A stretch of DNA of 14,099 nt from Bacteroidales bacterium UBA3684. Lineage in GTDB: Bacteria; Bacteroidota; Bacteroidia; Bacteroidales; P3. The notes below the pieces were generated by a model. That model ran no database searches. It worked only from the letters and a program-made list of their open reading frames with translations, and was not told the DNA's origin. Shown in pieces: positions 9,846 to 13,856 of this stretch (position 1 is the stretch's first letter; every line of letters starts with the position of its first letter). The translations under genes and the position numbers were made by a program. The DNA is taken from positions 1-14,099 of the forward strand of contig DFIZ01000074.1 of NCBI GenBank assembly GCA_002372855.1, written 5' to 3'.

Positions 9846-10718
9846 ATGAAATCAATGACCGGCTACGCCAAGGTGCAGTCCTCCTTCGGCGACAAAAAAC
9901 TGAACATAGAAATCAAAACCCTCAACAGCAAGCAGCTCGACCTCATCGTCAAGGTCCCCGCCGCCTACCGCTCCCACGAGCTCGACATCCGCGCCATGCT
10001 CGGCGTCCTGGAGCGCGGCAAAGTGGAGTGCATCCTCTCCGAGGAAAACAGCACCTCCGCCGACGCCAGCTTCAACACCGACCTCCTCGTCAGCCGCTAC
10101 AACGCCCTCGTCGACGTGGCCAACGACCTCCATGCCGTCGACCTCATGCACCGCGCCTCGCTCTTCACCACCGTGGCCGCCATGAGCGACATCTGGAACA
10201 CCGCCGCCAGCGACGAAGTCAGCGACGAGCAGTGGCAGCAGACCGCCGCCGACCTCCAGCGCGCCATCGACCTCTGCGACCAGTTCCGTGCCCACGAGGG
10301 CAGCGTCCTCGAGGTGGACTTCCACAAGCACGTCGACCTCATCGAGGACAAGCTGCGCCAAATCCCCGCCCTCGAGGGCGAACGCATCGACACCGCCAAG
10401 GAGCGCATCAAACGCTACCTCGCCGACGCCAACGTCGAAGTCGACCCCAACCGCTTCGAGCAGGAACTCATCTACTACCTCGAGAAACTCGACATCACCG
10501 AGGAGAAGGTGCGCCTGCAGAAACACATCGACTACTTCCGCCAGACCATGGCCACCGAGCCCTCCTGCGGCAAGAAGCTGGGCTTCGTAGCCCAGGAGAT
10601 GGGCCGCGAAATCAACACCACCGGCTCCAAAGCCAACCACGCAGGCATCCAGAAAATCGTCGTCGAAATGAAAGACGAGCTCGAGAAAATCAAAGAACAG
10701 CTGGGGAACGTGCTTTAA
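9846..10718 (+). CDS. yicC: YicC family endoribonuclease
   Basis: YicC proteins are conserved bacterial proteins with reported endoribonuclease activity on RNA. The 290-residue product carries the N-terminal signature MKSMTGYAK followed by EIKTLNSKQLDLIVKVPAAYRSHE (YicC-like N domain). It ends with the DUF1732 signature KKLGFVAQEMGREINTTGSKANHAGIQKIVVEMKDELEKIKEQ. The central part is helical, with YYLEKLDITEEKVRLQKHIDYF. Length is normal. The gene starts five bases after apbE and is probably on the same transcript. In many Bacteroidota yicC is followed by gmk (guanylate kinase). Here a 304-bp octamer array starts on the very next base after the stop instead, and would form the 3' untranslated region. 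Confidence 0.93.
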   Translation: MKSMTGYAKVQSSFGDKKLNIEIKTLNSKQLDLIVKVPAAYRSHELDIRAMLGVLERGKVECILSEENSTSADASFNTDLLVSRYNALVDVANDLHAVDLMHRASLFTTVAAMSDIWNTAASDEVSDEQWQQTAADLQRAIDLCDQFRAHEGSVLEVDFHKHVDLIEDKLRQIPALEGERIDTAKERIKRYLADANVEVDPNRFEQELIYYLEKLDITEEKVRLQKHIDYFRQTMATEPSCGKKLGFVAQEMGREINTTGSKANHAGIQKIVVEMKDELEKIKEQLGNVL

Positions 10719-11022
10719 AGTCGTAGAGCTATAGAGTCGTAGAGCTATAGAGTCGTAGAGCTATAGAGTCGTAAAGTCGTAAAGCTTTAGAGACGTAGAG
10801 TCATAGAGACGTAGAGACGTAAAGACGTAGAGACATAAAGTCGTAAAGATATAGAGACGACTTTATGTCTTTACGTCTTTATTACTTTATAACTTTATGA
10901 CTTTATGGCTTTAAAACTCTATAGCTCTACGTCTTTACGTCTCTACAACTCTACAACTCTACGTCTCTACAACTCTACGTCTCTACAACTCTACGTCTCT
11001 ACAACTCTACGTCTCTACGTCT
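10719..11022. repeat. Bidirectional octamer array, 38 units in perfect phase
   Basis: The 304 bp divide exactly into 38 octamers without an indel. Units 1-18 (10719-10862) follow AGNNDTAR on the plus strand. Units 19-38 (10863-11022) follow its reverse complement YTAHNNCT. Only unit 18 (agacgact, the hinge) departs from the consensus. The left end alternates agtcgtag and agctatag (16-bp period), and the right end alternates ctacaact and ctacgtct. Because every unit holds TAA or TAG and 8 is not a multiple of 3, inward reading meets stops in all three frames within 24 bases. The array begins immediately after the yicC stop and ends one base before a terminator hairpin. It is not CRISPR: there are no spacers and the unit is too short. 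Function is unknown. Confidence 0.9.
10819..10882. other. Near-perfect 25-bp hairpin at the array centre
   Basis: 10819-10843 pairs with 10858-10882 at 25 of 25 positions, two of them G-T wobbles (10830/10871 and 10819/10882), around a 14-base loop. Pairing is shifted three octamers from the orientation switch. Further out the arms still pair partly, since at least AG and TA match in every unit. A separate 16-bp perfect match links the left copies of cgtagagctatagagt (first at 10722-10737) to 10916-10931. Confidence 0.8.
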
Positions 11023-11023
11023 C

Positions 11024-11056
11024 AAAAAAAAGCCGCCCGTTTGGGCGGCTTTTTTT
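11024..11056. terminator. Bidirectional intrinsic terminator between convergent genes
   Basis: gccgccc (11032-11038) pairs with gggcggc (11043-11049) around the loop gttt, flanked by eight As on the left and seven Ts on the right, which extend the stem. It can end transcripts from both sides: the yicC cluster after it crosses the array, and the minus-strand T9SS gene 17 bases after its stop. Confidence 0.9.
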
Positions 11057-11072
11057 GTATCCAACTGGAACC

Positions 11073-13856
11073 TTACTTGATGATGAGTTTCTCGATCTTG
11101 CTGAAGGTGTCGTTGGTGATGCGCACGAAGTAGGCGCCGGCAGGCATGTTGCTGACGTTGATGGTGGTCTCGGCCTCAGCATTGATGTTGGCGTTGTAGA
11201 CCACGCGGCCGCTCATGTCGATGATGTTGCAGTTGACAGTGCCGGTGACACCAGCAACCTGCAGCTTGACGGTGGAGGTGGCGGGGTTGGGGTAGAGAAT
11301 CATACCAGCCTCGGGAGCCACGGGGTCGATTCCGACGGAGGGATCCCAGCCGTACCACTCGTAGTCAACAGTGATGGTGTAGCCATTCTCGTTCTGGGGA
11401 ATCTGCTGGAAGAAGAGCTCGTAGTATTCGCGAGCAAGCAGCACCTGGTTGGCCGAGTTGGTAACGTTGGCCTCGCCGCTATACAGCCAGAAGTTGGTAG
11501 TGGGGGTCTCGCCGCCTTCAACATAGACGGGGGCCTCGACGCCGTTCACATACACGTGGGTGATGTAAGAGTGGTCGCCCTTAGGATAGATCACGAAGGA
11601 CTGGTTGGAACCAACGGCCACATTGACCTCGTCGGAGCAGGCGTCGTCGGCACCGTGCTCAACGGTGACACCGAATTCGTTGTTGGTGTCGGAGACACAA
11701 CCGGTGGCAACAACGGGAACACGCTCAACCTCGTCGGCAGGTCCGACGATGGGGCGAATCATAGGATAGTTGTTAATATTCCAACCATGAATCCAGTGGC
11801 TACCACCCGCGTTCGTGCCGTTGGCATCGTAGACCATCACGCTGTAGGGCATGTTGGGGCTGTTCTGGTAGTAGTAGGGGGCGGTAGCCTCGTCGTTGAG
11901 GTAGCTGGCGCGGGTGTTGGCGTCGGGCTTGTAGCTCCAAGCCTGGGCGGCCACGTGGAAGTTGGCATCCTCATAGAGGCGGTAACCGAAGCGATAGGCG
12001 GTGTTGGGCTTCAGGGTGGGCTGGTCGAGGAAGGGGATGTTGATGGCGCTGTAGTTGGCCTCGCCGTCGGTGGAGGGCAGACGATAGCCGGTCGTGGGCA
12101 GGTTGGCAATGTCGGCCTCGGTGACACTGAAGAGCTGGTTGTCGATACCGCAGGGGACGTCGACGAAGCTCAGGCTCTGGTCGTCACCTTCGCCAACATA
12201 CTGCTCTTCGTACACAACGGGCAGGATGCAGCCTTCGGCGGGAGCAACCGTACCGTCGGTGGCGGGCACCATTTCGAAGCCGCGGAACACCCAACCCTCG
12301 GGAATGTCGTTACCGGTGGTGTAGCGGACATGAACCATGTAGCCGCGTCTGGTAGCATGGTCACTTCCATCGCTAGCATCGAGGTAGTGGTTGTCGCCGT
12401 CGCCGTAGCCAACCTTGAAGGTGGAGTTGGAGGGGATAAGACCATTGTCGCGGCCCCAACGGTAACCGTCAACACCATTGCCGCCTTCAAACTCGATGTA
12501 GCTGGAGACGGTGTAGAGGACGGAGTCGACGAGGGTGTTCAGGTTGCCGCCGTGGGCACGCACTCTGTAGACATTGGCACCAACGGTCTGGGTGTTGAGG
12601 TGGCGGCCCTGGAAGCCCTGGGGCAGGCCGGGCTGGCCATAGTGGGCGTAGTTGCCGAGCCAGTCGTGCGAACCGTAGGTCAGAGGATCCTCGGTCATGA
12701 AGCCGCGCTCGTTGACGATCATGCCGTAGTCGGTGTCGAACTGGCCGGCGGGCATGGTGAGGGGGGCAGAGGTGGCAACGGTGGTGAACTCGCCGCCGTT
12801 GAGCGGAGCATTGTCGATGGAGATGTAGGCGTTGTTGAGGGTGGTGATGTTGGTGTTGCGGCCATAGATACCGTAGGTGATGGGGATGCTCATGCCTTCA
12901 GGCATCATACCGTAGAGACCGTCGATAGGAGTGCTGTGGTTGAACTCCCAAGACTCGGTGTCGTTGTTGCTGATGACGGCGACATTGTCGAGGAACCAGC
13001 CGTAGCCGTAGGCGGCATACTTCTTGGCGGAAACGCGGATACGCAGTTTGATGGAGGTCTGGTTGACCAGGTTGAAGGGCATGACGTAGCGGACCTTGGA
13101 GGAAGCAACGCTGTTGACATCGCAGTCGATACCGTTGACGTTGATTTCGCGGACATACCAGGTGTTGCCGATCTTATAGTCGAGGAAGCACTGGTCGTAG
13201 AAGCTGTAGTAGGCCTGGTTGACACCGACCACGAAGGGGGTGCCGCTGGTGGTACGGGTCACCACGGGCAGCTCGATGTAGTCGTTGATGTTACCAACGC
13301 TCAAAGCGTTGTTGTTGGCATCATAGCCATAGAAGACGAAACCGTCGTCGGCATAGCCGGCGTCGTTGGTGTTGTTGCCGGCGCCAATGCGGTTGAGGAC
13401 CCAGCCGAAGTCGGTGCCGCCGTTGCCGTCGCCGCAATAAAAGCTACCAACCCAGGTAGGATAGTCGGTCATGATGTTGGCCTTGAAGGTGGCGGAGTCG
13501 GCATAGCGACGCCACTGGGCCCACTGGTTGGCGGAGGTGTTGACGGTGTGGGCGTCGGCGCCAACGGTGCTGTCGGTGCCGTTGACATTGATGACGTCGG
13601 TGGCACTGAGGGTACCCACGGTCATTTCTGCCCAGTCGGAGGCCGAGAAGCGGAAGACACGCAGGGTGTCGAGGTGGGAATCCTTGGCGAAGATGGAGGC
13701 CTTGTAGTCAACATCGGCCTTCTGAACCTCGCTCAGATTGATTTTCTGCTCGCGGCCACGGGGAATGTCGTGGCGGGAGACGACGGTCTTGGCGGTCTGT
13801 GCGAAAGCCATGGTGGTGCACAGGGCAAAACCTAAAACCATTAATGCTTTTTTCAT
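11073..13856 (-). CDS. Large T9SS-exported protein with jelly-roll-like domain
   Basis: This 927-residue protein has a clear signal peptide (MKKALMVLGFALCTTMAFAQ, cleavage likely after residue 19). It ends in a type A T9SS sorting domain (about 851-927), which starts GMILYPNPATSTVKLQV and includes IIDMSGRVVY, NMPAGAYFVRI and a basic tail KIEKLIIK. The N-terminal third has a segment ending YGYGWFLDNVAV (near residue 280). This is the pattern of the 'choice-of-anchor' or MAM-like jelly-roll domains found in Bacteroidota surface proteins, where strands carry an acidic FxD/DNV signature. The middle is beta-rich, aromatic- and glycine-rich, with no recognised catalytic motif. It is likely surface-attached or secreted, and its function is unknown. 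It is monocistronic in this window, with a promoter about 105 bases upstream and a terminator directly behind the stop. Confidence 0.82.
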   Translation of the reverse strand: MKKALMVLGFALCTTMAFAQTAKTVVSRHDIPRGREQKINLSEVQKADVDYKASIFAKDSHLDTLRVFRFSASDWAEMTVGTLSATDVINVNGTDSTVGADAHTVNTSANQWAQWRRYADSATFKANIMTDYPTWVGSFYCGDGNGGTDFGWVLNRIGAGNNTNDAGYADDGFVFYGYDANNNALSVGNINDYIELPVVTRTTSGTPFVVGVNQAYYSFYDQCFLDYKIGNTWYVREINVNGIDCDVNSVASSKVRYVMPFNLVNQTSIKLRIRVSAKKYAAYGYGWFLDNVAVISNNDTESWEFNHSTPIDGLYGMMPEGMSIPITYGIYGRNTNITTLNNAYISIDNAPLNGGEFTTVATSAPLTMPAGQFDTDYGMIVNERGFMTEDPLTYGSHDWLGNYAHYGQPGLPQGFQGRHLNTQTVGANVYRVRAHGGNLNTLVDSVLYTVSSYIEFEGGNGVDGYRWGRDNGLIPSNSTFKVGYGDGDNHYLDASDGSDHATRRGYMVHVRYTTGNDIPEGWVFRGFEMVPATDGTVAPAEGCILPVVYEEQYVGEGDDQSLSFVDVPCGIDNQLFSVTEADIANLPTTGYRLPSTDGEANYSAINIPFLDQPTLKPNTAYRFGYRLYEDANFHVAAQAWSYKPDANTRASYLNDEATAPYYYQNSPNMPYSVMVYDANGTNAGGSHWIHGWNINNYPMIRPIVGPADEVERVPVVATGCVSDTNNEFGVTVEHGADDACSDEVNVAVGSNQSFVIYPKGDHSYITHVYVNGVEAPVYVEGGETPTTNFWLYSGEANVTNSANQVLLAREYYELFFQQIPQNENGYTITVDYEWYGWDPSVGIDPVAPEAGMILYPNPATSTVKLQVAGVTGTVNCNIIDMSGRVVYNANINAEAETTINVSNMPAGAYFVRITNDTFSKIEKLIIK

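Follow-up and report, generated by a model that had tools for sequence, protein, structure and literature searches.

A fixed-core octamer family tied to gene ends in a Bacteroidales genome, with two opposed arrays between convergent genes

The spacer between yicC and the gene that converges on it holds 38 octamers that change orientation partway along. The spacer lies in the window, the whole 14,099-nucleotide stretch of DNA analysed here, from Bacteroidales bacterium UBA3684. On balance, we consider it probable that this feature consists of two separate 3′-flanking arrays of one genome-wide octamer family, AGNNNTAR, placed head-on and grown by slippage with the core of the unit as the register. 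Because arrays of the family follow the strand of the upstream gene and mostly start at stops, the apparent inversion is best read as the meeting, between convergent genes, of one 3′-flanking array from each side.

The octamer array of the window

The features of the region, with coordinates in the window, are as follows.

9846..10718, plus strand: yicC, YicC-like endoribonuclease (ORF; Pfam PF03755 and PF08340)
10719..10854, plus strand: forward arm, 17 octamers AGNNNTAR (sequence)
10855..10862, no strand: hinge AGACGACT, junction of both arms and centre of a stem of 15 pairs with a 4-base loop
10863..11022, minus strand: reverse arm, 20 octamers that match AGNNNTAR when read from the minus strand, in sense with the convergent gene (sequence)
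11024..11056, no strand: intrinsic-terminator-like hairpin, bidirectional: A8, GCCGCCC-GTTT-GGGCGGC, T7 (sequence and fold)
11073..13856, minus strand: convergent gene, 927-aa protein with a Por secretion-system C-terminal sorting domain (Pfam PF18962)

The array covers 304 bp (10719..11022) as 38 octamers laid end to end with zero indels, exactly as the first-pass annotation had it. It lies, as also annotated, between convergent genes, yicC ending at 10718 on the plus strand and the sorting-domain protein gene at 11073 on the minus strand. It is made up of 17 forward AGNNNTAR units, one hinge (AGACGACT) and 20 reverse-complement units; the earlier tally of 18 forward units brought the total to 39, one too many, whereas its 20 reverse units and single hinge were right. 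The stop codon of yicC (TAA, 10716-10718) adjoins the forward arm in phase (NNNNNTAA, then AG). At the other end, the hairpin sits between the reverse arm and the convergent gene, one base past the arm; it is absent from one scan's listing and is placed here from sequence and fold.

Positions 1, 2, 6 and 7 of the unit are invariant in 37/37 non-hinge units (0 core departures), as had been claimed for this array. C is never seen at position 5 in the window, in agreement with the D of the pattern first proposed (AGNNDTAR), and position 8 is A or G. Units 1-7 of the forward arm carry the free triplets TCG and CTA in alternation, that is, as copies of a 16-bp block, and the units of the reverse arm closer to the convergent gene are mostly AGTTGTAG and AGACGTAG in alternation. 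The comparison with shuffled sequence that had been proposed as a check sets the longest real run of 20 units against a maximum of 2 in 1000 first-order resamples of the region 10301-11500, and of 3 in 1000 first-order resamples with the array's own composition. The whole window gave 0 Rfam matches at the gathering threshold and no tRNA. An ORF that reads the reverse arm as 'LYNST' repeats (10905-13835) was judged spurious; it is antisense to the secreted-protein gene.

A family of arrays at gene ends in the same genome

A BLAST search of the draft genome (1.89 Mb in 88 contigs, 79% complete) with the window array locates AGNNNTAR arrays at 14 loci, the window and 13 others. The locus is thus not unique, and the combination of strict phase with divergence limited to certain positions, first remarked on in one array, is true across 14. 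A further match (C49), two units inside a gene at E = 6, was dropped as chance. A sample of contigs from the same genome contained zero AGNNNTAR, which is a biased density because these contigs were chosen without a BLAST match to the array. Genes outside the window were called by a custom codon-model script, not by a standard annotator.

The octamer is sense to the downstream gene in 13/13 non-window loci and sense to the upstream gene in all 11 that have a visible one (L003 and L015 lie too close to a contig end to show it). In 10 of these 11 the distance from the upstream gene's end to the array start is between -8 and +7 nt; the exception is L004, where the array lies 139 nt downstream. 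The register agrees with the native stop in 6/12 loci when the window and the out-of-phase L004 are included (1.5 expected, p = 0.002), and in 6/11 with L004 left out (p = 0.001). In L005, L008 and L017 the native stop doubles as the TAR of a unit; in L010, L013 and the window it is the TAR of the in-phase octet that precedes the array.

In 13 of the 14 loci the units have a single orientation, that of the genes next to them. Only the window among these loci is a convergent site, and it is therefore the place where two opposed arrays are expected. Orientation-flipping, which the annotation had treated as a property of a single element, does not hold across the family. Run lengths are 3 to 20 units per arm, with four units in 1/16.

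Two of the loci, L003 (216-367, reverse complement) and L004 (1506-1601), have the same upstream 11-mer stretch, as if a composite had been copied, and a TATCTTTG box downstream of both arrays resembles what we take to be a Bacteroidota promoter motif. Elsewhere in this genome, a 95-bp inverted repeat of 11-mers (AGAAGTATATG-like) is present with identical letters at L039, L042, L043 and L053. Three of the four copies lie ~400 bp or less from a contig end, and the repeat may be the cause of assembly breaks.

Unit structure and probable block copying

Across the 157 units of the 15 arms, with edges extended leniently, positions 1, 2, 6 and 7 have an entropy of 0.11-0.27 bits, as against 0.89-1.68 bits at positions 3, 4, 5 and 8, and 18/628 core bases are departures. 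The core constraint of the non-window arrays is partly by construction, since they were bounded by the AGNNNTAR pattern itself. The window array, bounded by the stop codon and the hairpin, is free of this bias. A minimum spanning tree of the 32 distinct unit types among 138 units, taken from arrays delimited by pattern runs, contains 2 core changes and 30 changes at variable positions (p = 1.2e-7, or 9e-6 corrected for choosing 4 of 8 positions).

Neighbouring units are not near-identical, as they would be in a simple perfect-slippage microsatellite: identical adjacent units are depleted in the family (4% vs 12% with units shuffled), while identical units are enriched at lag 2 (22%) and lag 3 (24%) relative to 12-13% in shuffled order. 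Because adjacent identity is rare and lag-2 and lag-3 identity common, the order of units points to copying in blocks of 2-3 units (16 and 24 bp); the TRF periods are 16, 24 and 32. There are thus signs of the copying and turnover that the first-pass annotation suggested, both in these blocks and between species (below). Identical unit variants are found again at many loci of the family. Depletion of identical neighbours was rejected as a general rule, as other 7-10-mers are enriched at lag 1.

Signs of spacer turnover between sister species

Around six matching genes, 173 stretches were compared, 7 from the own genome and 166 from others, some of them paralogues; among the matches listed, AGNNNTAR runs of at least 3 units occur in 0/166 of the relatives' stretches. 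The surroundings of the window array are retained, with yicC, the terminator-like hairpin and the convergent gene all kept in the same-genus genomes G008, G021, G014, G004, G018 and G011 and likewise in G002, G022 and G007. In 22 same-genus relatives, the yicC spacer contains other 7-10-bp arrays in 6, 11-mers in 2 and none at threshold in 14. The other arrays include ATAACGTN in G014, CTAGAAATT in G004 and CCTAGGNNNN in G002, and opposed octamer runs are found in G022, G007 and G018. Different arrays thus occupy one spacer across sister species, a sign of turnover between species. In G022, the yicC spacer (L061) has a near-perfect octamer stem of ~40 bp before the hairpin; it resembles a true hairpin far more than the two arms of the window do.

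A second spacer lies ahead of a gene that we presume, from its GSFNPIHVGH motif, to be nadD-like. In the own genome it measures 132 nt and holds nine octamers. Among 27 readable relatives, the gene pair overlaps by 1 nt (a spacer of -1 nt) in 8, and the spacer contains different arrays in 5, some of which start at the stop itself (TAGTGTT, TAGTGGG, TGANTGNN). The gene upstream of it gave no Pfam match. In G002 this spacer (L150) extends over 480 nt and mixes arrays with units of 7, 11 and 9 bp, for a gene pair that overlaps in several sisters. Several other arrays of the genus, judged by eye, also combine a fixed core with 3-4 free bases.

Short-repeat arrays across the genus and phylum

Spacers of at least 20 nt were scanned for periods of 5-13 bp, those with N runs being dropped; N runs inflated the period-5 rows of one array scan. 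Array-bearing spacers amount to 43/143 in sampled contigs of the own genome and to 24/179, 35/214 and 33/205 in the further genus members scanned. The same period scan finds arrays in 0/119 spacers in 200 kb of E. coli K-12, and the E. coli collection gave no DNA match to the window array. By period, the 149 arrays divide into 74 of 11 bp, 45 of 7, 15 of 8, 7 of 9, 6 of 10 and 2 of 12, with 0 of 5, 6 or 13.

The 11-mers behave unlike the 7-10-bp class. They lie in longer spacers, with 0 in the co-directional spacers of <70 nt that are home to 24 7-10-mers, and 27/74 are between divergent genes. They are the commonest class within G008 (28/38 arrays; for example L106, L113 and L117) and within G004 (21/34). 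Of the co-directional 7-10-mers that lie no more than 15 nt from the stop and leave part of the spacer unfilled, 16/20 are G-rich on the sense strand, as against 2/18 farther from the stop (p = 2e-5), a comparison that leaves out ties and 18 spacer-filling arrays (10 G-rich, 8 C-rich). The 227 array-free spacers have no G skew. When all contexts are scored by the nearer gene, G-richness is a weak trend (42/69, p = 0.09), and a rule of outward growth for all arrays is for that reason not claimed.

A first estimate of general stop-phase locking (15/39 vs 4.6 expected) was discarded as inflated because array detection could take in the stop; a strict test gives 7/28 vs 3.4 expected (p = 0.04). 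Inverted pairs occur in 10/134 array-bearing spacers of the wider sample; the criterion was strict and overlooks diverged pairs, L053 being an example. A predicted 812-bp spacer of G014 (L095:7409-8220) contains three same-orientation arrays of the octamer AGACWTCR, a unit with no sense stop codon.

Related arrays are scattered in other Bacteroidota, as the proposed scan of related genomes found. DNA matches to the array occur in 3/60 near relatives besides the own genome, one of which (G035) has just two units in a row, and in 20/395 sampled Bacteroidota, own genome included. Among 26 loci fetched from the phylum search, runs of at least 3 units lie near the match in 10, and the rest are related, different repeats. 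Two of the 10 have the same letters as a listed array and one is inside a predicted gene, leaving 7 distinct extragenic arrays. Of these, 2 are flanked by genes of their own strand, 2 stand between convergent genes and 3 run antisense to the genes on either side. Nine further loci comprise 3 between own-strand genes, 2 between divergent genes, 1 antisense to both neighbours (L030) and 3 without a visible neighbour. An exact-pattern search returned 7 contigs, 5 from Bacteroidota (in which we take Cloacibacterium to belong), 1 from Pseudomonas and 1 from Chthonomonas. A perfect octamer, (AGTTGTAG)n, is also present outside Bacteroidota, in Pseudomonas agarici and a Chthonomonas MAG (L030, L028).

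Proposed mechanism

Most likely, the AGNNNTAR arrays are slippage-grown and quickly replaced spacer DNA in which the core is kept as an annealing register. The block order of units, their placement at stops outside genes and the differing arrays in sister spacers are seen directly. In the window, one array would run 5′ to 3′ from the yicC stop. The other would start just beyond the convergent gene's terminator-like hairpin and run along the opposite strand. Growth may proceed by misaligned replication or template switching, with the 5-nt core TARAG acting as the annealing register. Amplification would then be limited to units with an intact core, and the three bases between cores would drift. 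The first core could be supplied by the stop codon of the gene, and the upstream coding sequence could not be overwritten; together these two conditions would determine where an array starts, in what phase it lies and that it reads in sense.

A core that acts as an annealing register would account for the contiguity of TARAG, the free bases between cores and the start at a TAR stop, as well as for the contiguous cores of ~5-6 nt that are visible by eye in other families. The product of such growth would be mainly spacer DNA. Two side effects are genuine features of the sequence, stop codons in all frames over the length of a few units and, where two arms are opposed, a large imperfect RNA stem, but these are probably not what maintains the array. 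Since variants are common to many loci, copying between loci would be needed beyond independent birth at each stop.

Some observations count against slippage growth from stops. Orientation is mixed outside the genus, 3/7 distinct phylum arrays being antisense to both neighbours, and stop-phase locking is clear in the AGNNNTAR family but weak as a general rule (7/28). The depletion of identical neighbours is likewise not general, and the one octamer phase that spans both arms would be a 1-in-8 coincidence.

Alternative explanations

In descending order of probability, the first alternative is an unlikely one in which the repeats are an RNA-binding platform. Transcribed UAR-AG cores would be multivalent protein sites in 3′-UTRs and intercistronic regions, maintained by selection. 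Core constraint and strict spacing are consistent with such a platform, as is a strand that follows the upstream gene in 11/11 loci, and MacGregor suggests that TAACTGA repeats act post-transcriptionally (PMC4679880, available part). However, cores and periods (7, 8, 9, 10, 11) are many per genome and differ between sisters, so that many binders would be needed, and the selection per unit over 37 units would have to be very strong. A platform based on the RRM was rejected. RRM_1, the domain of RbpB and the one RNA-binding family covered by the search, matched in 0/13 genus genomes, own genome (79% complete) included. In addition, the most significant motif in the available part of the Bacteroides RbpB study, a 41-nt sRNA motif, is unlike AGNNNTAR (PMC11697453).

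A doubtful second possibility is that this Bacteroidales genus has an active, stop-codon-seeded process of array writing in which the free bases are made during copying. Units would consist of a lineage-specific core of 5-6 nt with a stop triplet, followed by 3-4 near-random bases. Any given spacer would come to contain other cores and other periods from one sister to the next (AGNNNTAR, CCTAGGNNNN, GATAGANNN, TCTAGANNN, TGANTGNN), and the free bases would arise in copying, not by point mutation.

Selection for an RNA stem follows, and we regard it as unlikely. The forward and reverse arms would form a long 3′-UTR hairpin that stabilises the mRNA or blocks convergent read-through. Together they fold at -143 kcal/mol over 304 nt, and a stem followed by a terminator-like hairpin is found again in the yicC spacer of relatives (L061, L062, L063) and in the own-genome spacer L053, with a similar stem without the terminator in L146. 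Yet 193/200 permutations of the units and 197/200 column shuffles are at least as stable as the real order, and the variable bases of the two arms match no better than chance in the best of 12 registers (p = 0.56). A register-specific hairpin of the two arms was therefore set aside. Furthermore, 13/14 AGNNNTAR loci are single-armed, and strict inverted pairs make up 10/134 of the wider spacers.

Selection for translational stops is improbable. One UAR per unit at period 8 would place stops in three frames against read-through ribosomes, and the forward arm indeed has 5/6/6 stops per frame and the reverse arm 7/7/7 on its own sense strand, with 1-2 per frame on the other strand. A sense stop is also present in 35/39 stop-proximal 7-10-mers (26.1 expected, p = 0.0004). 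Against this, A1 and G2, which lie outside the stop, are about equally invariant, and variants that kill the stop are moderately depleted only (14 vs 22.6 expected). Antisense stops are enriched near stops too (26/39 vs 18.4, p = 0.003); in arrays away from stops they occur in 17/20 (13.8 expected, p = 0.06), as against sense stops in 9/20 (8.7 expected). With a unit of 9 bp, moreover, all the stops of a family fall into a single frame.

Spread by a transposase or a REP-type system (Y1/RAYT) through GTAG-like tetranucleotides is very improbable. Many units end in GTAG, the own genome has Y1 transposases (3 matches, 2 above cut-off), and the common flanks of L003 and L004 resemble a dispersed composite. 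However, Y1_Tnp was not found in G007 (88% complete) or G008 (95%), both of which contain 7-11-bp arrays, and the unit is not a 20-40-bp palindrome. Finally, an assembly artefact of a draft in 88 contigs at 79% completeness is least credible of all, given 14 loci with mostly distinct flanks and orientations matched to genes, and independent genomes with other arrays in the same spacer.

Comparison with known repeats

Several published classes share part of the AGNNNTAR architecture. Mrazek et al. (2007) described long simple sequence repeats with units of 5-11 bp, defined as longer than statistically expected, and proposed polymerase slippage (via PMC4679880). The unit range fits AGNNNTAR, and the account given in the available part of PMC4679880 holds no fixed-core degeneracy or stop-codon anchoring. 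Prokaryotic satellites such as (GATAGRA)n of Chloroflexus aurantiacus likewise have a short degenerate unit with TAG at many places per genome, but that unit is a heptamer (PMC6749651, available part). The tandem repeats of Borgs evolve rapidly, arise independently and are in some cases intergenic; unlike AGNNNTAR, they belong to archaeal extrachromosomal elements, and the source, in its available part, stresses in-frame amino-acid repeats (PMC9879509). REP/RAYT systems, as the available parts of two sources describe them, are defined by a palindrome of 20-40 bp that bears a GTAG or CGTC tag and by an associated Y1 transposase (PMC3733652, PMC2817692), whereas the unit here is 8 bp and non-palindromic, and Y1_Tnp is present in the own genome and not found in G007 and G008.

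The first-pass annotation did not recognise a named element. In that respect it stands, as PMC literature, a coverage outside which most subscription papers fall, yielded no name for AGNNNTAR; the kind of array, however, has published relatives. The nearest among published kinds are the TAACTGA repeats (PMC4679880) and the heptamers of Rehm et al. (PMC4692102), both known here from the available parts of these papers. TAACTGA direct repeats occur in Beggiatoaceae, cyanobacteria and five Bacteroidetes (MacGregor 2015, PMC4679880). Like AGNNNTAR, they are short, tandem and mostly intergenic, have a unit that is not a multiple of three, carry forward stops and are present in Bacteroidetes. They differ in being a fixed heptamer, which the main species carry in 2-6 copies and mostly right before starts (PMC4679880), whereas AGNNNTAR is a degenerate octamer at stop codons.

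The heptamer arrays of Xanthomonas and Nostoc, GGGAATC/(GGGANTN)n and GGGGA(C/T)T, have fixed and free positions, an intergenic location, a stop-proximal sense placement and inverted convergent pairs in common with AGNNNTAR (Rehm et al. 2015, PMC4692102). Such pairs are frequent there (70 and 75 cases in two species), while most arrays lie between aligned ORFs and their length varies between species (PMC4692102). The AGNNNTAR arrays are placed similarly, within 8 nt of the stop in 10/11 loci and in sense in 11/11; no mirror copies ahead of start codons, on the strand opposite the coding one, were seen in the family. The Rehm unit is 7 bp, against 8 bp in 38/38 units of the window, and its G-tracts are able to form G-quadruplexes, with a preference for four units (PMC4692102); AGNNNTAR has runs of 3-20 units, the core TARAG, and GGG as free triplet in 12/157 units. 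On these two grounds, unit length and G-tracts, the family falls outside the Rehm class. Degenerate, polarised arrays of short units therefore extend beyond G-rich heptamers to an octamer mostly without G-tracts, so that G-quadruplexes cannot be the general reason for this architecture. With sisters that carry differing arrays in one spacer and, at one gene pair, 8/27 readable relatives in which the genes overlap and no spacer exists, the genus offers a system for testing how 7-11-bp intergenic repeats turn over and what makes some bacteria rich in them.
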